From: Thiotrichales bacterium
GTDB lineage: Bacteria > Pseudomonadota > Gammaproteobacteria > HK1
Assembly: GCA_026709935.1 (NCBI GenBank)
Contig: JAPOSC010000034.1
Location: 1-64,000 of the forward strand
Direction of reading: 5' to 3'
Length of the DNA stretch: 64,000 bases
Part shown: positions 41,663 to 52,414 of the stretch, in pieces
How positions within the stretch are numbered: the stretch's first letter is position 1
Layout: each line of letters starts with the position of its first letter
Translations under genes and position numbers: made by a program
The notes under the pieces: generated by a model
What the model was told of the DNA's origin: nothing
Seen by the model: the letters and a program-made list of their open reading frames with translations, nothing else
Database searches by the model: none

Positions 41663-44600
41663 CACTCGTCCCTGAGTGGCCCGGATGACCCCGATGACCC
41701 CGATGGCCCGGGTAGCCCGGGTAGCCCCGGTGGCCCGGATGGCGGCGTCTCCATCAGCCATTCTCGCTGGCGCTCCGAGAGACCGTCACGCGGTTGCGAT
41801 TCCGGCGGGATTTCGATCTGCGCAACGTCCATTGCGGGCAATGTCGGGACCATGCTCCGGCCGGCCGGGAGTGGCTGCGCCTCCATCGCGGCCAGGATCG
41901 CCCTTGCAACCGCCCGCGCGACGAGCCCGTCGAGGTCGAAGCCGGGGGCATCGAGCCGGCCGCGCAGGGGAACCTCGATCGTGATGCTGCTCCCTTCGTC
42001 GGCGAGCGCTTCCAGAGCTGCTTCAAGCGCGGCCGTGTCTTCCATTCCCCCGGGCTCGGAGAGGCTCGCGGGCGGCCGGGACTCTGCCACTGCGACATCG
42101 CTCAGGGTGAGGTCCGCGACCGCCTCCAGGTCGGAGGTGCGCACCGTGGCATCGACCACCACGTCCGCGTGTCCGCGAGTGATGGACTGGCCGAGGTGCA
42201 AGCGCGTGTACGGGGAGAGCGCGGGGAGCGACAGACCGCGGACCGTCGCCTTCAGATCGAGATCGGTCCCGGTCAACGTCGGAACCAGCGCCCCGTCGGC
42301 GCGCAACGAGTCGAAGATGCCGGCGGTCGCTTCGACGGAGAAACGGGCCGACCCGCCGCTGGCACCTCCGATAGCAGTGCGGTCGAACCCGCGCAACGCG
42401 GCGTGTTCGATGACCAGCCTCTCCGCGAAGGCCGGCTCCGTCGTCCGGTCGGTGATGTGAACGATGAAGCCGGCATCCGTGGCGCTTGCTTCCCGCACCC
42501 GCACCGTGAAGGGGCCATCGCCATCGCTGCCACCATCGTCAGCGCCGATCGGCAGTGCCGGGAGCTCCCAGTCGCCGGTCTCGCTCACCGCGATGGTGCT
42601 CTCGACGCCGGAGAGGCTCAATGTCCCGATTTCCAAGCTGATGCCTGAGTCGGTGCCTGAGCTGATGCCTGAGCCGGTGCCCGGGCCGGAACCACGAATC
42701 GTCAACGGGCTCGCCCGCACCGCACGGGCCGAGGTGCCACCGTGGCCTCGCGGGCCGTGGACGGTGACGCCATCCAGGCCGGCGTCCGCGAATGTCGTTG
42801 CGCCCGAAGGCTCGACCCGCATTCCCCGGGCACTCGCGCGATCGGCGCGCATGCGGGTTTCATTCGCATTGCCCATCAGGTCGAGGTGCACCGCCTCGAC
42901 GGATTCGACCGTCGCCTCACCCGAAGCCGGCGCGCGGTAACCGCCCAGCGTCAGCGCACCGGTGGACCACTCGATCGCCGGCTCCACCCCGCCCCGAGCG
43001 GATTCGGAGTGCAGGGTCATGAATTCGTGCGCGCCGTCGGTGTCCATCCGGGCCGAGGTGAAGGCCACCCCGTCGAACGAGACCCGGTGCGCAGACGCCG
43101 CGATGCTCATCAACGGTGCCGCGCCTCGCTCCGCCACCAGCGTCTCGCCGTTCCACTCGACGGCCTCGGCCCGTACGCCGGAGAGATCGATGCCGGTGCT
43201 GTCGTGCGTGCGGTGATATGCCCTCTCCGCCCCGGCGTTGGCGGCGCGCACCACGGATGCACCGTCGAAGGACAGCGCACCGAACTCGACGCCGCGCACT
43301 CCGATCGTCGAATCGTCGGTGACGTTCAGCACGAGCGTTTCCAGCGATGCCGCGTCCGCCCCGGCGCGTCCGGATGCGGCCCTCTCGACGCCGGTCAAAC
43401 GCCATCCCTCGGAGTGCCAGCGGTGCCGCCGCCGGGTGTCGAGAGTGGTGGAAGCGGCTTCGATCGCCTGCGCGCCTATCGTCCCTTCGCGCCACGACGG
43501 TGAATCCACCGAAAGACTCTCCACCACCACGCGGTGACCGCCGGAGCCGATTTCGAGCGCCTCCGACTCCGCGAAGTGGGCGCTCACTTGCCCGTCGCCG
43601 CCGACGGTGTCCACCAGCGCGAGCCCGCGCACCGTCCAGCTTGCATCCGCCGTTCCGACATCGACGGTGTCGATCCGAACGGACTGCGCTCCCCAGGCAT
43701 CATCGGACACGGTGCCGCCGGCCAGATCGAACCCCCGGCCGACCATCGTCCACGTTCCGGTTCGGATGTGGTCCACGATGCGGGCTCGTGCGGATTCGAC
43801 GCTCACGGTGCCGACGGCGTCCCGCGTCACGCCGTCCAGACCGAGCCCCTCCAGGATCAGCGTGCTCGCGGCATCGGCAAGCCGTGCATCCGCAATCCGG
43901 GTGGCGCCGACGGAGATCGCGCCGGTCGGCGAGACCGCGGCCGATTCGAGCCCGACATCGTGCAATCGCAGGTCGGAGTCGTCATTCCTGCCCCCGACCG
44001 CTTCCGCCGAAACGAGAGAGGCCCGCAGGGCGCCGCTCCCCCGGCGTTCGAACTGTTCCACCGCCAGGCGAGTCGCGGTTCCGGTGCCCCGCGGACCGGC
44101 GAACCCGCGCCAGTCGATGCGCGCCGCTGTCCCTGCCGCCGCGGACACGACATCCGTGTCCCCCGCGAACACCCCACGTTCGAGTGTGATCTGCTGCGCA
44201 TCGATCGAGCGGTCGGCGGGGAGCTGCACGTCGAGCGCGCTGATGGTCAGCGTCTCGACCTCCGCCTCGACGACCTCGTCGAACGTCAGCACGATTCGCG
44301 AGGCCAGATTCGCGGCTTCGACGCCAACCGCCTCGAATGCGTCTCCCGTGCCATTGGCGCGCAGGGTGGGGATGCGGCCGTCCACCGTCACTCGGGTCTC
44401 CGGGGTGCGCGATGCGTCGATGTGCACCATCAGCTCCGTCGCCTCCAGGTCGAACCTCTCCTCGATCTCGACGCGAGGTTCGCGCAGCCCGAGTTCCCCG
44501 TCCACGCTGAGCCCTTCCACGGCATCCCCGGAGAATGTGAGGAACGCGGTTCCGTTCCAGTCCGCCCGCGCCACCGAGAGGTCGGCCCGCGTGGGTCCCG

Positions 44601-45498
44601 GCTCGGACTCCAATCCTGTTTCTGGGCCGATTCCCGGGCCGATTCCTGTATCGATTCCTGGGTCGAGCCCGAGGCCGAACCCCAGGCCGTCGACTGCCCA
44701 CCGCCCCCGGGTCGTGGTGCTGGACGCCCCGCTGGTCGGCGAGTAGACGACCCGTACCGGACCCGCTCCGCCGAGTCTTCCGCGCCACGATCCACGCGCG
44801 CCGAGCAGGGCCGAGAGCGCCTCGAACGGGATTTCTTGCGCACCGACCTCGCCATCGAGAATCCAGGCCGCGCCGTCGAGGCTGATCCGGCCCTGAAGTC
44901 TGGCACTCCCGGCCCCGACGGACAGACTCGCCTCGACCTCCGTCCCCTCCGGCCGCAGCGCCCGGTCCAGCGAGGCGACTCGCAGCCGGTCGATCGCGAC
45001 CGGGTGCCCGGCGGCTTCGGAGATGGCCCCGAGTTCGACATCGTCGATGACGAACTCGCCGATGCTCATGTCGCCGGGCAGTGCCCCGTCCATGCCCGCG
45101 ATCGACTCACCGACCGACAGCTCCGCCTCGCTCAGACGGAAATCGTCGAGCACGAGGCGGCCGGCCGCGAGCGCGGCGAGATCCACCCGCGCTGCGATGC
45201 TGGACCATCGGGTCGACGATTGGCCGGAGGTCGCGACCCCGACCCCGTACAGCCTGACCGTGGACTCGAACGGTTCGATCCGCGTCCGCTCGATCCGGAG
45301 ATGCACGCCGTGCCGGGCCGCAAGCTGGGGGATGTACCACGTCAGGCCGAGGGGAAGCACCACGTAGCTGGCAAATGTGACAACGAGCGCGCCCGACACG
45401 AGCCACATCACCAGCCGGCCGTATCTGAACGCTGCGTGTCGACGACGTCGCGCTGCGCTGTTCATCTCGACCGCGGCACCTTCTGGAGCGGACTGCAT
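41662..45498 (-). CDS. Giant AsmA-like / DUF748-type envelope protein with collagen-like tail
   Basis: A 1278-residue protein anchored by one N-terminal helix (LVMWLVSGALVVTFASYVVL). The next segment LGLTWYIPQLAARHGVHLRI then TRIEPFESTVRLYGVGVATS is typical of AsmA/DUF748 proteins, long beta-groove proteins that move lipids between membranes. Most of the rest is repetitive beta strands starting with D, S and T. The protein is interrupted by low-complexity G/S/P/T stretches (GLDPGIDTGIGPGIGPETGL near residue 270-300 and SGPGTGSGISSGTDSGISL near 940), encoded by short tandem repeats, and it ends with a run of Gly-X-Y triplets (PPGLPGLPGPSGSSGSSG). It overlaps uvrD by one base. The start may be ATG 45498 or ATG 45465. 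Its coupling to uvrD is unexpected. Confidence 0.65.
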   Translation of the reverse strand: MQSAPEGAAVEMNSAARRRRHAAFRYGRLVMWLVSGALVVTFASYVVLPLGLTWYIPQLAARHGVHLRIERTRIEPFESTVRLYGVGVATSGQSSTRWSSIAARVDLAALAAGRLVLDDFRLSEAELSVGESIAGMDGALPGDMSIGEFVIDDVELGAISEAAGHPVAIDRLRVASLDRALRPEGTEVEASLSVGAGSARLQGRISLDGAAWILDGEVGAQEIPFEALSALLGARGSWRGRLGGAGPVRVVYSPTSGASSTTTRGRWAVDGLGFGLGLDPGIDTGIGPGIGPETGLESEPGPTRADLSVARADWNGTAFLTFSGDAVEGLSVDGELGLREPRVEIEERFDLEATELMVHIDASRTPETRVTVDGRIPTLRANGTGDAFEAVGVEAANLASRIVLTFDEVVEAEVETLTISALDVQLPADRSIDAQQITLERGVFAGDTDVVSAAAGTAARIDWRGFAGPRGTGTATRLAVEQFERRGSGALRASLVSAEAVGGRNDDSDLRLHDVGLESAAVSPTGAISVGATRIADARLADAASTLILEGLGLDGVTRDAVGTVSVESARARIVDHIRTGTWTMVGRGFDLAGGTVSDDAWGAQSVRIDTVDVGTADASWTVRGLALVDTVGGDGQVSAHFAESEALEIGSGGHRVVVESLSVDSPSWREGTIGAQAIEAASTTLDTRRRHRWHSEGWRLTGVERAASGRAGADAASLETLVLNVTDDSTIGVRGVEFGALSFDGASVVRAANAGAERAYHRTHDSTGIDLSGVRAEAVEWNGETLVAERGAAPLMSIAASAHRVSFDGVAFTSARMDTDGAHEFMTLHSESARGGVEPAIEWSTGALTLGGYRAPASGEATVESVEAVHLDLMGNANETRMRADRASARGMRVEPSGATTFADAGLDGVTVHGPRGHGGTSARAVRASPLTIRGSGPGTGSGISSGTDSGISLEIGTLSLSGVESTIAVSETGDWELPALPIGADDGGSDGDGPFTVRVREASATDAGFIVHITDRTTEPAFAERLVIEHAALRGFDRTAIGGASGGSARFSVEATAGIFDSLRADGALVPTLTGTDLDLKATVRGLSLPALSPYTRLHLGQSITRGHADVVVDATVRTSDLEAVADLTLSDVAVAESRPPASLSEPGGMEDTAALEAALEALADEGSSITIEVPLRGRLDAPGFDLDGLVARAVARAILAAMEAQPLPAGRSMVPTLPAMDVAQIEIPPESQPRDGLSERQREWLMETPPSGPPGLPGLPGPSGSSGSSGPLRDE
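41681..41743. repeat. 9-bp tandem repeats encoding the Gly-X-Y tail
   Basis: Seven imperfect 9-bp units (plus-strand CCGGATGAC, CCCGATGGC, CCGGGTAGC, CCCGGTGGC) encode the collagen-like C-terminus of the AsmA-like protein. The multiple-of-three period preserves frame. Confidence 0.8.
42642..42690. repeat. Short tandem repeats in the AsmA-like gene
   Basis: Plus-strand units resembling TGATGCCTGAGTCGGTGCC / GAGCTGATGCCTGAGCCGG (a 9/18-bp period) encode a G/S/T-rich insertion near residue 940 of the AsmA-like protein. Confidence 0.65.
44628..44680. repeat. 12-bp tandem repeats in the AsmA-like gene
   Basis: Imperfect units such as CCGATTCCCGGG, CCGATTCCTGTA and TCGATTCCTGGG encode a GIGPGIG-type insertion around residues 270-300 of the AsmA-like protein. 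Confidence 0.7.
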
Positions 45499-45600: not shown

Positions 45601-45660
45601 GTGAGAAGTGCGGTCAGGGCGTACGTGAAGGAGACGCGTATTCCGCGCGGCGTGTCCCCG
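45601..45660. repeat. Diverged copy of the 59-bp element
   Basis: GTGAGAAGTGCG with GTACGTGAAGGAGACGCGTA aligns with the second unit at 39255 (GTGAGAAATGCG, GCATATGAAGAAGACGCGCA). The right inverted arm is lost. Confidence 0.6.
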
Positions 45661-45765
45661 CCCGTGTCCCCGGGACTGGACCGAGTTTTCGGAGGAACAG
45701 CGCGTAAGTGACTGTAGATGCTCGAAAAAGAGCGATTTGGGGAGCAGCGAGGGACGGTGTGGGAA

Positions 45766-46334
45766 TCAGGTACAGTGGGTGTGACTGCATATAGCCCGAC
45801 GCGCAGCCAGGAAAAACCCACACACGAGCGGGAGGAAGCATACTGCTTCGGGTGTGTTGTCAAATATCATTGAACGACAGAAATGTCTTGAATACGACAT
45901 TCTTGCCGGTGAGCTTTTCAGGGATTCGGGGTCGGATTCTCTCCGGGACTGGGTGCTCTTTTGCTTGCGTTTACAACGACTTGGCGCAATACCGGGTCGG
46001 ACGCTGGAGACCTGTGAGGCCGTGACTGGCCGTCGCAGCGACGCGTTCGCTCGAAATTCGGGAATCGTCCCTCTCATCCTCTGAATTCGCCTCCGGCGGA
46101 GACTCCGCTCGGGACCGCTGGGGGTCTGATTTACTACATTGGGTAACAACTGGGGACACGCGGGTAACAAACGCAGCGGTCTGATTAGAGCCGGATGAGA
46201 AGCATTCGCATCTGCATTGAGTAGCACCTAATTCCCTGTTTTAATTCGCAATTCCTCTACCACGTATGCTCCTGAGCGGGCGCCTCCATGCTCGCCGGGA
46301 CCCGCGACCCCCCAATCACACCCACTGTACCTGA
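45766..46334. mobile_element. 569-bp segment bounded by perfect 19-bp inverted repeats
   Basis: TCAGGTACAGTGGGTGTGA at 45766-45784 is repeated exactly in inverted orientation at 46316-46334. The enclosed DNA has no convincing gene and is lower in GC than its surroundings. Size and ends suit a non-autonomous transposable element or a deleted insertion sequence. I could not identify a target-site duplication with certainty. Alternatively the repeats may be part of a dispersed palindromic repeat family. Confidence 0.5.
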
Positions 46335-46620
46335 CTCGACCCCGCCGGGGTCGGCCCCCGACAGACCGGGTGGGATCGCACTCTCGAACGGCCAGGAATC
46401 GCCCCCACCACACGCGCACAGAAGGCTTGAAGTGCTCCACTGCTTCAACGCCAGGAGACAGGCAAGTGTGCACGACAGGGCCCAACGGGTGGCGCGAACC
46501 ACACTCACCACAGACCCGGGTCGGGTTCTCGGCCTGATTGACGTCGATCGCGCGGCCGGCGTGAGGGCGGCGATCTCTTCAAGACATATCGAGCAGTCAA
46601 TTCTCACAGGAGCGCATGAA

Positions 46621-48648
46621 ATGAGAGCACGAACGAGCCTATGGGCGAGCATGGCCATCGCGGCCAGCCTCGGCCTCGCCGGGTGCGGCGGGTCGAGCGA
46701 TAACGACGAGGGGACGAATCCACCGGATTCCACTACCCCGACACCGGTAGATGCTACGGCGGATATCAAACTGTCGAAGGCACAAAGTGCCGCGCTGAAG
46801 GCCGACGGCATACTGCCCGACAACGGGGATTCCTTCACACTGGAAAACGTTGGTGAAGGTGACGATGGCGTGACTCGGGTAGGTGTGACGTTCACCTGCG
46901 CCAGTGCCTATCCCTGCTCAGTAAGAGTCGAGAACAGCGGTGGGACGATCGTCGCGACGGCGCATAGCCAGAGACTCCCGACTGGAACGGTAAGCGGCGC
47001 GGCCGCAGGACTCGCAAGGGATCGTGTTGATACGTTTGCGAGGCTGAATGACGGGAGCACACCCGCCATTCGTCGCGACGTAATTGGAGCGGCGGCGGAC
47101 AGCGGGACGGTTCCTCCCAACCTCACCCCCACGGAATTCACAGGAATGGGCATCGGTGGTCCCGGCGTTCTCCCCGAGGATGCGGAGGCTAAGGGCGGGC
47201 TGCGAAGTGACTTCCAGGCGAACGGCGGACGTTTCACTGATGATGCAGGTGCAGATCTAGATCCCCAGCCTGCGGCAGGAGCAGATCCAGGTGTTCTGCC
47301 AACTCTTAGGGGTGGCACTACGATCAGCGTCGCTGTAGCGCCGGACGGAGATCGAATCACTCCGAGCCCTGACATGGCTCCCGCGCCCGATGGGTGGAGC
47401 ATGAGGACGTTGTTCAGGGATTGGGGCGATACATCCGATGACAGCGATGGTGGCTTCGAGACGGGCGCTATCATAGTTACGAATCTGGGCGCAGGTACAC
47501 CGTATCCCTTCGATCGCAAGTTGTCCGGCAAGTACGTAAACGATGACGCGAAGGTGATGTTTGCATTGAGCATCCGAGCTGATGGAAGCGAACCTAACGT
47601 TGTTTCGCTTGCAACATCGGTAGATATCAATCCCACTGACTCAACGACTCCAGCCGAGCAGTGGGCAGCGATGGTCTTCGATAGCACATCTTTGGTTGCG
47701 GCCCAAGATCAAGATCTCAATGTCGATGCAAACGAAACGTTCACGGGCACGTATTTTGGAGCTCCAGGCAAGTTTCAGTGCCTCGGGGCTAATGGCGATC
47801 ATGGTTGCGGTCTAATGAGGAACGAGGACGGTGACGTAGTCGTCGTTGACCAAGATGCAGGCTCTGGTGATGATGCTACCGGGATTCAAAATGGAAGGTG
47901 GTCATTCACCCCTGACCCTGATGCCATGATCACGGTTCCGGATCAGGACTGGATCGCCTATGGCGCTTGGTTGACTACTCCTGATCAGACGCATGGCGAT
48001 CACAGACTTGGCGTGCTCTTCAATGGCATGGACCTCTACGCGCCCGCCGTCGTGAGAAATGCAGACAATGACGGTGATACGAACGCCTTCGACCCGGCCG
48101 CTCCGGACGGTCTGCGTGGCAGTGCAACCTACAAAGGTGGAGCGACTGGCATCTACGTGGATGGCGGTGATTCTGGCCTGTTCACTGCCAACGCATCACT
48201 GACGGCGCACTTCGATAAGGATTCTACTGGTACGAATGTCGAAGATACCGACTATCACATCTCTGGGCGCATCGATAACTTCCGGGGCACAGATGGTGCA
48301 TTCTTGGGAGACGATACGGAGGCTTCACCTAACGATCCAGAGGGTGGTGGTGAGAACGATTGGGTCGTATTGCTCACGTCAGCCGAATTTGATTCGAGCA
48401 CAGGTGACGATGTTGTTCCAGGAGTTATTCCGCAACATGCTACTGAAGGTTCAGCAGACGGCGTGCCTTGGGAAGGCATGTGGGACGGCAGGCTCTTTGG
48501 CCCATCCGTCGATGCGGATGGTGACCCAACTCCCCCGAGCGGTGTCGCTGGGCAGTTCTGGGCAGAGATTGATGACACTGCTGATACCGATGCGGACAGA
48601 GGTCCAACGACGGCTGTTGTCGGCTCGTTCGGCGCGAACAAGCAGTAA
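46621..48648 (+). CDS. Surface lipoprotein with TbpB-like C-terminal barrel
   Basis: A 675-residue lipoprotein. The signal peptide ends in a lipobox (ASLGLAGCGGSS) and an acidic, S/T/P-rich linker follows. The last 200 residues match the handle and barrel pattern of transferrin-binding-protein-B-like lipoproteins: LRGSATYKGGATGIYVDGGD, then FTANASLTAHFDKDS, ISGRIDNFRGTDGAF, NDWVVLLTSAEFD, and the closing GVAGQFWAEIDD with AVVGSFGANKQ. Family members reach the cell surface through Slam-type translocators and bind host proteins or metals. The N-terminal half holds no domain I recognise. AGGAG lies ten bases before ATG 46621. An intrinsic terminator follows. The codon use is less GC-rich than in flanking core genes. 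Confidence 0.65.
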   Translation: MRARTSLWASMAIAASLGLAGCGGSSDNDEGTNPPDSTTPTPVDATADIKLSKAQSAALKADGILPDNGDSFTLENVGEGDDGVTRVGVTFTCASAYPCSVRVENSGGTIVATAHSQRLPTGTVSGAAAGLARDRVDTFARLNDGSTPAIRRDVIGAAADSGTVPPNLTPTEFTGMGIGGPGVLPEDAEAKGGLRSDFQANGGRFTDDAGADLDPQPAAGADPGVLPTLRGGTTISVAVAPDGDRITPSPDMAPAPDGWSMRTLFRDWGDTSDDSDGGFETGAIIVTNLGAGTPYPFDRKLSGKYVNDDAKVMFALSIRADGSEPNVVSLATSVDINPTDSTTPAEQWAAMVFDSTSLVAAQDQDLNVDANETFTGTYFGAPGKFQCLGANGDHGCGLMRNEDGDVVVVDQDAGSGDDATGIQNGRWSFTPDPDAMITVPDQDWIAYGAWLTTPDQTHGDHRLGVLFNGMDLYAPAVVRNADNDGDTNAFDPAAPDGLRGSATYKGGATGIYVDGGDSGLFTANASLTAHFDKDSTGTNVEDTDYHISGRIDNFRGTDGAFLGDDTEASPNDPEGGGENDWVVLLTSAEFDSSTGDDVVPGVIPQHATEGSADGVPWEGMWDGRLFGPSVDADGDPTPPSGVAGQFWAEIDDTADTDADRGPTTAVVGSFGANKQ

Positions 48649-48672
48649 GCCAGACGCAATCACCTGAAGGTC

Positions 48673-48707
48673 AGAGCGGCCTTCATACGGAGGCCGCTCT
48701 CTCTTTA
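48673..48707 (+). terminator. Rho-independent terminator after the first lipoprotein gene
   Basis: AGAGCGGCCT (48673-48682) and AGGCCGCTCT (48691-48700) form a perfect 10-bp stem around an 8-base loop, followed by CTCTTTA. It separates the two lipoprotein transcripts. Confidence 0.85.
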
Positions 48708-48761
48708 GGGCACATCGACCCCTTCACAGTACCTATAATGCATCCCGAGGGAGACTGACTC

Positions 48762-50660
48762 ATGAAGTATTCTCACATTGGCCTAGTAGCTCTCGCAGCA
48801 GTCTTGATCGCGGGATGCGGCGGCGGGTCAGATACCCGAGAGAAGGAACTTGAGGAAAAGGTCACAGATCTGGAAAAGCAGGTAGAGGATCTTGAGAAGC
48901 GGCCGACGGAAAGCCAAGCCGCAACAAGAGAGCGAACTGCGCGGCAACAGGGAAGACAGGAAGGCGAGGCTGATGGCAATCGGCGCGCTGAGGCAGCCGA
49001 AGAGAAACAGCAAGAAGCTGAAGAAAAGCTACAGGTAGCTGAGCAGGAAGCTAGAGGCAAGGCAAATCAGCTCCGGCAGAATAATGCGCGGCAGGTGCTA
49101 GAGGGACTGAGTGCCCATGATGCTTCGAGTGAGTCTGGCCAAGCTGGAACCAGTACTCCAGCAGTCACGCCCCGCTACCAAGCGAGCGCGTTAGTCACGA
49201 CGGTTCCTCCGCTTTCAGCTCCTAAAGTGACTACTCCCGGACCACTAGGCGAATGGTTCAGAACATCGATCACGTCTCGGGACTTCGTGACTATCGACAG
49301 ATTCGATGTGTACTCTGATGTCGAGGCTCCCAAGCGAGTTTCGTTTAGAGAGAGCATCTACAACGATGGAACCGATGGTGACGGAATTCCTAATACGGGT
49401 AACCTGATTGTTGTCCCACTTTATACTCCAAGTAGCTCTGCTGCCTCTACTACTGAGGTCATCGATAGTACGAACGCAGTAGTCAGGTCGCTCGGAATCT
49501 CTGATGGTACCTCTGCCCATACGAACGTATCCGGTGTTGTCGCCTCCCCATTCCCGAAGTCTGGTGAACCTGAAAAAACATTCGCGGTAGTCGATCGAGG
49601 TGCCTACACTCGGACAGAGATTGATGCAGGGAGGGCGTGGTATAGGGCGAATAGTGCCGACAGTAACCAGACTGATGTGGCTCTGCCTATCCATTGTAGT
49701 ACCGCGTGTGACGCAAGCGGATTTCCAGATCGAACCGCCAATCCCGATATCACGTTACCTCGCACTATCAGAAACGATAAGCGTTATCCCCTTCGCTGGA
49801 CCTATGAGACGACCGGAAGCATCGCAGGAGCTTCTGGAACGTTCACTTGCGCATCCGGCGGCGTTGCAGCACCGGGGGCGAATCCGAAGCCAGGGGCGAA
49901 TGCGTGCGGCGTGACTAACCAGAATACCCACTTTGTCTTTAACGGGCCATGGGTGTTCACCCCTAACCGCGGCGCGACGATTCAAGTCGATGATGCCGAG
50001 TACATGTACTTTGGGTGGTGGGCGCGTCAGACAAATCCGAACAATAGTGCCGGGACGTGGACATTCCGCACCTTCCACGGTCCGGCAGCGAATGGCAATC
50101 GCTCGACTGTGACTGAGATCGCGCGACTGAGCGGCACGGTAACCTACAAGGGGACCGCAGCAGGGCAATACTCCTTCTTTCAGCCACTAGGCGGCGGACA
50201 TTCGCACTACGGTGAGTTCACTGCTAACGCGACTCTCACGGCGAACTTCACCGAAACTGGAAATTCACTTGGTGGCGATGAAACAGTCTCAGGCACCATC
50301 GACGGGTTCAAGACTTTAGTCGGTGAGTCTCAGATTCCTGTTGAACGCTCGGATTGGGTCGTGACTCTCAGGCAAAGGAACATTGCCGCCAACGGAAGGG
50401 TTCCGTCCGGTGAAACTGATGCTAATAACGCAGTGACTTGGTTGACTGACGACAACCCGACCGCCGCTCCAGCCGCCGGGACATGGGAGGCTGCATTCTA
50501 TTCCAACCTGCCTACCGCTAAACGGGGAGGGGGGACTTCCGGAGTAGACGCGGAAGACGCTACGCCTACCGGGATCGCCGGGACATTCGAGGCCGAGTAC
50601 CACAACGTTGGGAAGATGGTCGGTGCCTTCGGAGCGCACTGCGAGCGGCCCTGTCAGTAG
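48762..50660 (+). CDS. Surface lipoprotein with coiled-coil stalk and TbpB-like barrel
   Basis: A 632-residue lipoprotein: signal peptide with lipobox (LAAVLIAGCGGGS), then about 85 residues of charged heptad sequence (EKELEEKVTDLEKQVEDLEK, EEKQQEAEEKLQVAEQEARG) predicted to form a coiled coil, a linker, and a beta-rich body. The C-terminus repeats the TbpB-like pattern: LSGTVTYKGTAAGQYSFFQP, FTANATLTANFTETGN, VSGTIDGFKTL, RSDWVVTLRQRN, AAGTWEAAFYS and GIAGTFEAEYHNVGKMVGAF. GAGGGAG lies nine bases before ATG 48762. It is a paralogue-like neighbour of the lipoprotein upstream, sharing only the C-terminal module. The stalk suggests projection away from the membrane. Two C-terminal cysteines (HCERPCQ) are unusual. 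Confidence 0.65.
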   Translation: MKYSHIGLVALAAVLIAGCGGGSDTREKELEEKVTDLEKQVEDLEKRPTESQAATRERTARQQGRQEGEADGNRRAEAAEEKQQEAEEKLQVAEQEARGKANQLRQNNARQVLEGLSAHDASSESGQAGTSTPAVTPRYQASALVTTVPPLSAPKVTTPGPLGEWFRTSITSRDFVTIDRFDVYSDVEAPKRVSFRESIYNDGTDGDGIPNTGNLIVVPLYTPSSSAASTTEVIDSTNAVVRSLGISDGTSAHTNVSGVVASPFPKSGEPEKTFAVVDRGAYTRTEIDAGRAWYRANSADSNQTDVALPIHCSTACDASGFPDRTANPDITLPRTIRNDKRYPLRWTYETTGSIAGASGTFTCASGGVAAPGANPKPGANACGVTNQNTHFVFNGPWVFTPNRGATIQVDDAEYMYFGWWARQTNPNNSAGTWTFRTFHGPAANGNRSTVTEIARLSGTVTYKGTAAGQYSFFQPLGGGHSHYGEFTANATLTANFTETGNSLGGDETVSGTIDGFKTLVGESQIPVERSDWVVTLRQRNIAANGRVPSGETDANNAVTWLTDDNPTAAPAAGTWEAAFYSNLPTAKRGGGTSGVDAEDATPTGIAGTFEAEYHNVGKMVGAFGAHCERPCQ

Positions 50661-50679: not shown

Positions 50680-50889
50680 ATGGCTACTGAACGCTTCCTG
50701 CACATGCGGCTCTCCCGCGAAGACTGCGCGGCTCTCGATGCGCTGGTCGAGCGGGTGAACCGCGGCGAGGCTCTGGGAACTACGAGAGACCCGCATGTCG
50801 GGAAGCCTCGGTACCGCCGCAGCCAGAGCGATGTCGTGCGGCTGGCGATTGCAGAAGCTCTACTCAGGCGGTTCGAGGAGCACGTGTAA
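50680..50889 (+). CDS. Small ribbon-helix-helix-like protein
   Basis: A 69-residue basic protein starting 19 bp after the second lipoprotein gene. The order of a short strand (ERFLHMRLSRED), a helix (CAALDALVERVNRG) and a helix bearing the SQSDVVRLAIAEALLRRFEE pattern resembles CopG/ParD-type ribbon-helix-helix DNA-binding proteins, in which the SxSDVVRxAL helix is typical. It may regulate the lipoprotein gene or be the stray antitoxin of a lost module. There is no toxin gene adjacent. ATG 50680 lacks a strong Shine-Dalgarno, so translation may be coupled to the gene upstream. Confidence 0.5.
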   Translation: MATERFLHMRLSREDCAALDALVERVNRGEALGTTRDPHVGKPRYRRSQSDVVRLAIAEALLRRFEEHV

Positions 50890-51334
50890 GCCGCCTGGCG
50901 GTCATGCACTACAGGGGCGCACAGGAAACGCAGAGCGGGTCAGTTTACGGAGAGGGTGGCGGCGTCGCCTCATAAGGATTCGTCGCCTCATCAGGATTCA
51001 GAGTCTTTCGAGGGCGCTCCCGGCGTCGTCATCCTCTCCACCTTCACCGCGTAGTCGGCAGCTCAGGGAGCGGTGTCGGTGTCCCGCGGGGATGTGTCAG
51101 GTGGTCCCCCGGGACGACTCCGACCGACATCGCTCCCCCTTCTCTCGCCGTTCCGGTGGCCTCGAACCCCATGGGAGATCAGAAGAAATCCGTCATGACT
51201 GACATCTGGTGGTGATTGCACCGGCCTCGGCGTGTCTCCCATCACGCCGGGGCCACCTCGCTCCTTCGGAGGGAATAATGGAGCAAAGTCCGCAATCCCG
51301 CCTGACCGACCCCGCCGGCCTCTGTCGTGACACT
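50890..51334. other. Intergenic region with an 18-bp duplication
   Basis: The only structure I see is a tandem duplication of an 18-bp unit (CGTCGCCTCATMAGGATT, one mismatch) at 50963-50998. The remainder contains no convincing gene; the last part runs into the transposase remnant. Confidence 0.5.
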
Positions 51335-51720
51335 GCCCGATCAGGGCGTTGCACTCTGATTTCATTCATGACAGCCCGGAAGGGTGTCTCCGCGATGCAG
51401 TCGTCGAAGGAAATTGGTTGTCAGTACCGGACGGCGTGGCATATGCTCCGCTGCGTTCGGGAAGCGTGCGCGGCGCGGCGATTTCGTCCTGAAGGACGTG
51501 GTGGAGATCGATGAGGCCTACATCGGTGGCAAGCGCGCCAGCATTTCGAACAGCGGGCGCAAGGCACTCACGGGCACGGGGAGGTGGCCGTGGGAAAGAT
51601 AGCGATAACGGGGATGCGTGAGTGGGGCGGGAAGATCATGGCCACTGTATGGGCCGTCCTCAACGATGGTGTAGACATGATCGCCCAGCGTAACGTCACG
51701 ATAAAGAGGATAAATCCATG
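51335..51720 (+). pseudogene. IS1595-family transposase remnant, frameshifted
   Basis: Three reading-frame pieces in a row match the IS1595 (ISXO2-like DDE) transposase: FMTARKGVSAMQSSKEIGCQ with YRTAWHMLRCVREACAARRF in the first, FVLKDVVEIDEAYIGGKRAS in the second (containing the first catalytic Asp), and VGKIAITGMREWGGKIMAT in the third. Frameshifts lie near 51480 and 51590. The zinc-finger N-terminus and the C-terminal catalytic residues are absent, and no terminal inverted repeats are seen. It is an inactive relic that indicates past insertion in this island. Confidence 0.75.
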
Positions 51721-51960
51721 GCAGCACTGAGCGACGAAATATCCGCCTATGAGCGGATGAAAAACGACTTGGAAACTGATTACTTCGGGCAATGGGTGCT
51801 TGTGCATCATGAAAAACTGATCGGTACATATGAGTCGTTCGAATCTGCGGCTGATAATGCTGTGCAGAGATTTGGGGAAGGTCCATATCTGATTCGGCAG
51901 ATCGGAATTCCTGCCCCTTCGCTCCCGGCGTCTGTGCTATATCGTTCTGTTCATGCGTGA
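51718..51960 (+). CDS. Small DUF5678-like protein
   Basis: An 80-residue protein with the pattern of DUF5678-type small proteins: a helix (DEISAYERMKNDLETDYFGQ), then WVLVHHEKLIGTYESFESAA, and a C-terminal strand FGEGPYLIRQIG. The function of this family is unknown. Its stop overlaps the start of the retropepsin-like gene by eight bases (ATGCGTGA), so the two are translationally coupled and probably act together. No clear Shine-Dalgarno other than AGAGG about ten bases before ATG 51718. Confidence 0.6.
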   Translation: MAALSDEISAYERMKNDLETDYFGQWVLVHHEKLIGTYESFESAADNAVQRFGEGPYLIRQIGIPAPSLPASVLYRSVHA

Positions 51961-52414
51961 AATCGAGTGCGGGTTTGCGTCTTTAACGCAAGGAAGCGGA
52001 GTCGATCTGCTTATTCGCTACGGCCCGACCGTGGCGGTTCAGGTTGGATTTGATCGGGAATACCGAAGTGGTAGTGGAGATATTCCGAATCTGCATGAGG
52101 CACAGCACCTGGCGCTTGTTGATACGGGCGCGACGTTGAGTTGTATCGACTCAACTTTAGCAGCAACTCTTCGTCTTCCGATCGTGGATCGGGAATCTGT
52201 ATCCGGAGTACATGGTTCTCAAGAGGTCAATGTGCACCTCGCGCAGATTTACGTCCCCTCTTTGGATTGGGTCATTTTCGGTCGATTTCACGGAGTGCAT
52301 CTTGTTCGTGGCAATCAGCCGCATCTCGCTCTACTAGGCAGGATATTTCTGCGCGACTTCACAATGACTTATGACGGTCGGACTGGATCGGTTAGGATTA
52401 GCAAGATTGAATAA
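51953..52414 (+). CDS. Retropepsin-like aspartic protease
   Basis: A 153-residue single-domain protein with the aspartic protease active-site motif in HLALVDTGATLSCIDSTLAA (DTGA) and the second family element near LALLGRIFLRDFTMTYDGR, where ILGR precedes a strand as in clan AA proteases. One DTGA per chain means the active enzyme would be a homodimer, as in retroviral proteases. No signal peptide or membrane helix is seen, so it should be cytoplasmic. It overlaps the DUF5678-like gene by eight bases. Targets are unknown; the small partner could be substrate, inhibitor or adaptor. It is convergent with folK-folP. Confidence 0.65.
   Translation: MREIECGFASLTQGSGVDLLIRYGPTVAVQVGFDREYRSGSGDIPNLHEAQHLALVDTGATLSCIDSTLAATLRLPIVDRESVSGVHGSQEVNVHLAQIYVPSLDWVIFGRFHGVHLVRGNQPHLALLGRIFLRDFTMTYDGRTGSVRISKIE

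Follow-up and report, generated by a model that had tools for sequence, protein, structure and literature searches.

Paired lipoprotein genes with predicted TbpB/fHbp-type barrels belong to a dispersed cassette family with Slam-linked relatives

Results

Two lipoprotein genes

The window analysed here (a 64,000-nucleotide stretch, positions 1 to 64,000 of contig JAPOSC010000034.1 from a Thiotrichales bacterium) carries at 46621-50660 two adjacent lipoprotein genes, here called A and B, and this pair is one copy of a cassette family dispersed through the genome. Both genes are open, lie where an earlier note written from the letters alone had placed them, and encode a signal peptide with a lipobox; these lipoprotein calls come from direct inspection of the translations.

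46621..48648, + strand: gene A, lipoprotein of 675 aa, lipobox LAG-C22 (Cys22), from translation
48762..50660, + strand: gene B, lipoprotein of 632 aa, lipobox IAG-C19 (Cys19), from translation

Alternative in-frame starts exist 5' of gene A, for example at 46288; we place its start at 46621 because the signal peptide common to 11 paralogues fixes that position. The two proteins have their C-terminal module alone in common and are unrelated in the parts before it (alignment A1), as had been suspected. Pfam and NCBIfam name neither protein, and searches of PHROGs and NCBIfam returned nothing useful. The closest paralogue of B is the B of contig C10, at 58% identity.

Predicted barrel fold

AlphaFold2 models were built from 14 aligned window and related proteins. 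Their usable parts, by predicted local distance difference test (pLDDT), are the stalk of B (mostly 65-85) and much of both barrels (strands 70-87).

46777..46965, + strand: small beta module near the N terminus of A, containing two Cys, residues 53-115 (model, pLDDT about 50, low)
48121..48642, + strand: C-terminal eight-stranded barrel of A, residues 501-674 (AlphaFold2, pLDDT 46-87)
48831..49121, + strand: helical stalk of B, residues 24-120, about 97 residues (AlphaFold2 model)
49254..50642, + strand: handle and barrel of B, residues 165-627, barrel 458-627 (AlphaFold2)

Against solved structures (VIA), the B model scores Z 15.6 with fHbp, 14.4 with NHBA, and 13.4 with TbpB and HpuA, and every row of its structure table is a chain of fHbp, NHBA, TbpB, HpuA or hemophilin/HphA. 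The best match of A is likewise fHbp (Z 12.8), then NHBA, and small outer-membrane barrels, Ail for example, rank below them; Foldseek places the NHBA C-terminal domain first (E 1.1e-4). For both models, known Slam cargo (fHbp, NHBA, TbpB, HpuA, hemophilin) outranks unrelated proteins. These comparisons support a predicted eight-stranded barrel of TbpB/fHbp type at the end of A and of B alike, which is the fold that the earlier note had proposed. One barrel per model was found in both proteins, not the two-lobe architecture of TbpB.

Profile searches recover the barrel in part of the family. The Pfam model TbpB_B_D is matched by 3 of 18 family barrels (best 2e-10), and its curated cut-off (PF01298) is passed at 3 places of the genome besides one cassette-family paralogue; the A gene of contig C46 gives one match over that cut-off. 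A profile of the family itself, run against PDB sequences, matched no solved chain.

The stretch of B before the handle had been described as an 85-residue coiled coil. A stalk-like helix is indeed predicted there, somewhat longer than proposed, and the coiled-coil assignment narrows to residues 24-47, the only ones with genuine heptads (matched by 0 of 2000 shuffles); residues 69-120 form a charged helix without heptads. Stretches resembling the beta module of A can be recognised by eye in other members.

The pair as one copy of a repeated cassette

The sequence around the two genes recurs with them.

45652..46464, + strand: conserved non-coding 5' flank (limits approximate), 75-83% nucleotide identity with 7 other cassette loci
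45763..45787, + strand: left arm of an inverted repeat, 25 nt, 92% complementary to its partner 525 nt away
46313..46337, - strand: right arm of the inverted repeat; the window has 2 matches where 0.08 are expected
46621..46698, + strand: constant signal peptide and lipobox (Cys22) of A, DNA 91-100% identical to the consensus of 11 loci
48665..48707, + strand: terminator-like hairpin between A and B, -26.6 kcal/mol, z -5.2
48709..48827, + strand: conserved 5' leader and signal peptide of B, 77-91% nucleotide identity between B loci
50680..50889, + strand: small ribbon-helix-helix (RHH)-like gene of 69 residues at the cassette end, immediately behind the final lipoprotein gene at 13 loci
50890..51260, + strand: conserved 3' flank (end approximate), 80% nucleotide identity with contig C68 up to +371

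Cassette copies occupy 13 loci, each with the RHH-like gene just downstream. The 5' flank, with its pair of inverted repeats, is common to eight loci and comprises up to about 1 kb of non-coding DNA; 13 places in the genome match its core, and all eight full-length matches precede cassette genes. Rfam found nothing credible in the cassette, 5' flank included. The family profile counts 20 barrels in this genome against 0-3 in 16 relatives of the family, and most barrels of this genome are 27-54% alike. The core of the A signal peptide is absent from 18 of 18 relatives. In the barrel tree, A and B do not fall into two clean groups, and barrels of other phyla are mixed in.

Five loci (the window, C46, C34, C15 and C10) carry both A and B, and six carry A without B (two on C68, and C48, C2, C8 and C19), C2 and one C68 copy lying close to contig ends. 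Because A stands alone six times and with B five times, the two components are not obligatory, and the two-component display system that the earlier note envisaged is not supported as a dedicated one; each gene also has its own 5' region. The terminator that it placed between the genes corresponds to the strong hairpin in the A-B gap, and hairpins occupy the same position at C15 and C34, each a different one. The small DNA-binding-like gene that it saw after the pair is present too: the window copy shares 66-79% identity with its 12 aligned counterparts (alignment A7), and the pattern of conserved columns fits RHH (CopG) proteins, with a weak RHH_1 match (best E 0.096, in 3 of 12 members).

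Copies dispersed in this way, with 25-nt inverted repeats at their front, could be read as mobile-element cargo, with the lipoproteins as passengers of a transposable unit to which the inverted-repeat block and the RHH-like gene belong. We regard this as distinctly improbable, since no transposase lies inside the unit and the resemblance between copies continues beyond the inverted repeats, so that the copies were not inserted independently. The narrower candidate of an independent miniature transposon formed by the inverted-repeat block was rejected, the flanks being alike between copies.

Beyond the cassette, a DUF748 protein of 1278 aa lies upstream on the opposite strand (41665-45498), and a small aspartyl-protease-like protein (gag-asp_proteas, E 8.5e-6) lies at 51953-52414. 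Short broken open reading frames (ORFs) at 51280-51600, including a 72-aa piece without a Pfam match, resemble an IS1595/ISXO2-type transposase.

A constant front and a variable body

In A, synonymous divergence of the signal peptide is roughly one tenth of that of the barrel: 6.5% of four-fold degenerate sites differ in the former versus 68% in the latter (45 pairs). The corresponding values for B are 35% and 64%. In one pair of A copies (C68b/C19), synonymous divergence (dS) is 0.07-0.20 over residues 1-160 and exceeds 1.2 beyond. Recombination between copies behind a constant front fits this pattern best, as far as sequence comparison can tell. Nonsynonymous divergence (dN) was below dS in both pairs computed, and we therefore claim no positive selection.

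The A gene of contig C8 (L049:5991-6140) loses its frame in a seven-G run that directly follows the lipobox Cys codon; the C48 copy has six G at that run and is in frame. The C8 frame break could reflect phase variation, decay or an assembly error.

Constant flanks around variable bodies, the mosaic C68b/C19 pair and a seven-G tract that shifts the frame behind the lipobox codon at C8 would all suit a role in escape from immunity or phage. On that explanation the cassettes are alternative coats whose variety is itself the function, and the RHH-like proteins, or recombination through the constant flanks, would switch expression from one copy to another. However, the data come from a single genome and show no sign of switching, every cassette seems to own its 5' region, unlike systems with a single expression site, and dN is below dS in the two pairs computed. 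We consider this explanation doubtful, rather than improbable.

Slam in this genome and in relatives

A search of the genome for Slam translocators, which the earlier note had proposed as a check, found two. The intact one, on contig C26, encodes 531 aa, is 51% identical to the Slam of a relative (G021), and has no family member beside it. The second, on contig C4, is divergent and lies beside a two-barrel TbpB_B_D protein. That neighbour, a 680-aa lipoprotein encoded immediately upstream of the very divergent Slam (L039:5595-7634, minus strand), has two TbpB_B_D stretches and also matches FHBP_C; the C4 locus forms a system of its own in this genome, and a more TbpB-like one. A supposed Slam beside the barrel gene of C46 was rejected, the ORF being an M23 peptidase.

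Across relatives, Slam was found in 18 of the 19 searched genomes with barrel hits and in one of seven relatives without; of the named genomes tested, 13 of 13 carry it. Of 35 Slam hits, 22 have a barrel gene as their immediate upstream neighbour in the same orientation. These Slam-linked relatives belong to the Gamma-, Alpha- and 'Delta'-proteobacteria, Nitrospirota, Nitrospinota and Cyanobacteria, and many are sponge bins. Phyla largely cohere in the Slam tree (Nitrospirota, Cyanobacteria and Delta form one group each, Gamma is split), so transfer between phyla is plausible and recent swapping is not shown.

That no cassette of this genome adjoins Slam would be expected if A and B were ordinary periplasm-facing lipoproteins that keep an old barrel and have no part in Slam export. 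Yet the same barrel is linked to Slam across the family in relatives, and an intact Slam has been kept here, which makes this explanation very improbable.

Several of the nearest folds (TbpB, HpuA, hemophilin) belong to nutrient co-receptors, which bind iron, haem or an iron protein of the host and pass it to a TonB-dependent receptor, and cluster 1 Slam is often found together with TonB genes (PMC12282271, PMC8406197). A and B might act likewise. The neighbouring large ORFs that we scanned include no TonB-dependent receptor or TbpA-like partner, no genome-wide search having been made; within those limits the absence of a transferrin receptor partner remarked on earlier holds. Some 20 divergent copies with swapped N-terminal parts would moreover be unusual for the partner of one receptor, and we judge the co-receptor role improbable.

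Distribution of the family

A scan seeded with two relatives, which as a seeded scan gives no measure of the family's frequency outside sponges, returned 18 loci with titles naming Gamma-, Delta- and Alphaproteobacteria, Nitrospirales, Nitrospinota and Cyanobacteria; the whole genomes of those relatives hold 1-19 barrels each. A scan of named genomes with B alone returned nothing, and 3 of 369 genomes from the window's own class match, its own included. One relative, MPMV bin56, comes from the sponge Aplysina aerophoba (PMC5649159), and the codes RHO, COS, STY, CAR and APA, read as host codes, would fit sponge species of PMC8163846.

Slam was found in one of 292 cyanobacterial genomes sampled, the Synechococcus bin from which we started. 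Its barrel and Slam pair adjoins genes for thioredoxin, glutamine amidotransferase and a conserved methylase-type protein, and the pair of another cyanobacterial bin adjoins GroEL. Such neighbours would argue against contamination. In two cyanobacterial bins (L105:2050-4560, L107:7398-9554) the barrel is followed by a long extra C-terminal region, autotransporter-like by eye. Two cyanobacterial bins have a DUF1036 gene behind Slam (L136:8127-8735, L137:5217-5828; the Pfam match was tested for L136 only).

Discussion

We conclude, with a probability of roughly 0.7, that A and B are cargo of type 11 secretion (the Slam system) and part of a diversified repertoire that binds host ligands. Both proteins would be exported by Sec, lipidated, brought to the outer membrane and flipped to the surface by Slam; the early steps are established Slam biology (PMC8406197, PMC9090332), which we infer to apply to A and B. 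The exporter is probably the intact C26 Slam, acting in trans. The C-terminal barrel would serve as the export and folding module, leaving the N-terminal part (the beta module of A, the helical stalk of B) and the handle to face outwards. The cassette runs from constant 5' flank and constant signal peptide through a variable A, sometimes a variable B, to the RHH-like gene, whose product may regulate it. Recombination or constraint would keep the constant parts alike while the displayed bodies diversify, and the cell would gain a set of different binders on its surface, whose ligands most likely come from an animal (sponge) host. A host ligand is our best guess because of the distribution and diversity of the family.

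Several points weigh against this conclusion. Mean pLDDT is 54 and 48 for the two models, and with 14-row alignments behind such values only stalk and barrel are reliable. Neither A nor B matches Pfam TbpB_B_D (PF01298), and none of this genome's cassettes, the window pair included, has Slam beside it. The invariant signal peptide could also be explained by constraint at the nucleotide level. The sponge origin of some relatives is read from bin codes, and literature searches gave an origin for only part of the bins, with the jk18, p16, SB0668 and OY records not among them.

The earlier interpretation is supported in part; it is mostly right and too narrow. Neither of the outcomes that the note had named as refuting it, predicted folds lacking the TbpB barrel or a genome lacking Slam, came about, and a cassette family with Slam-linked relatives was invisible to a reader of this window. 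A broader and more tentative proposal, to which we give somewhat less than even odds, is that a laterally spread, Slam-exported display system is common to unrelated sponge symbionts of several phyla, cyanobacteria included, and that in this gammaproteobacterium it takes the form of expression cassettes exchanging variable binders behind a constant front. If so, type 11 secretion would reach beyond Proteobacteria, with Slam in the Synechococcus bin's own gene context and in 0 of 291 other cyanobacterial genomes. The proposal bears on the way in which sponges distinguish symbionts from food and on the way in which symbionts from many phyla keep hold of their host, for which a surface-binder family with its own exporter, recurring across phyla, offers concrete candidates to test.

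Comparison with known systems

Cargo of the type 11 secretion system (T11SS) with a C-terminal TbpBBD barrel is known (PMC8406197, PMC12282271, PMC5449769), and barrel, handle and long helical N-terminal regions before the handle have been described for it (PMC12282271). The three papers treat the system as proteobacterial and do not mention sponges, and the literature we searched contains neither the cassette organisation, the expansion and the RHH-like partner nor Slam with cargo in non-Proteobacteria sponge symbionts. A and B resemble T11SS cargo as lipoproteins with a variable N-terminal effector part, a handle, a C-terminal eight-stranded barrel and, across the family, linkage to Slam. 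They differ in missing the Pfam barrel model, in numbering about 20 copies in one genome, in a cassette with constant 5' flank and signal peptide, an RHH-like gene and no adjacent Slam, and in a family that extends to Nitrospirota, Nitrospinota and Cyanobacteria.

By structure comparison the closest folds are Neisseria fHbp and NHBA, although identity to A and B is only 12-21%. With TbpB the two proteins have in common a lobe of handle and barrel; unlike TbpB they have one barrel, not two lobes, and no TbpA-like partner was seen nearby. Mycoplasma vsa and Neisseria opa are multigene surface-antigen families. The cassettes described here differ from them in fold, in export route and in offering no evidence of switching, but resemble them in joining a constant front to a variable displayed body in many copies.
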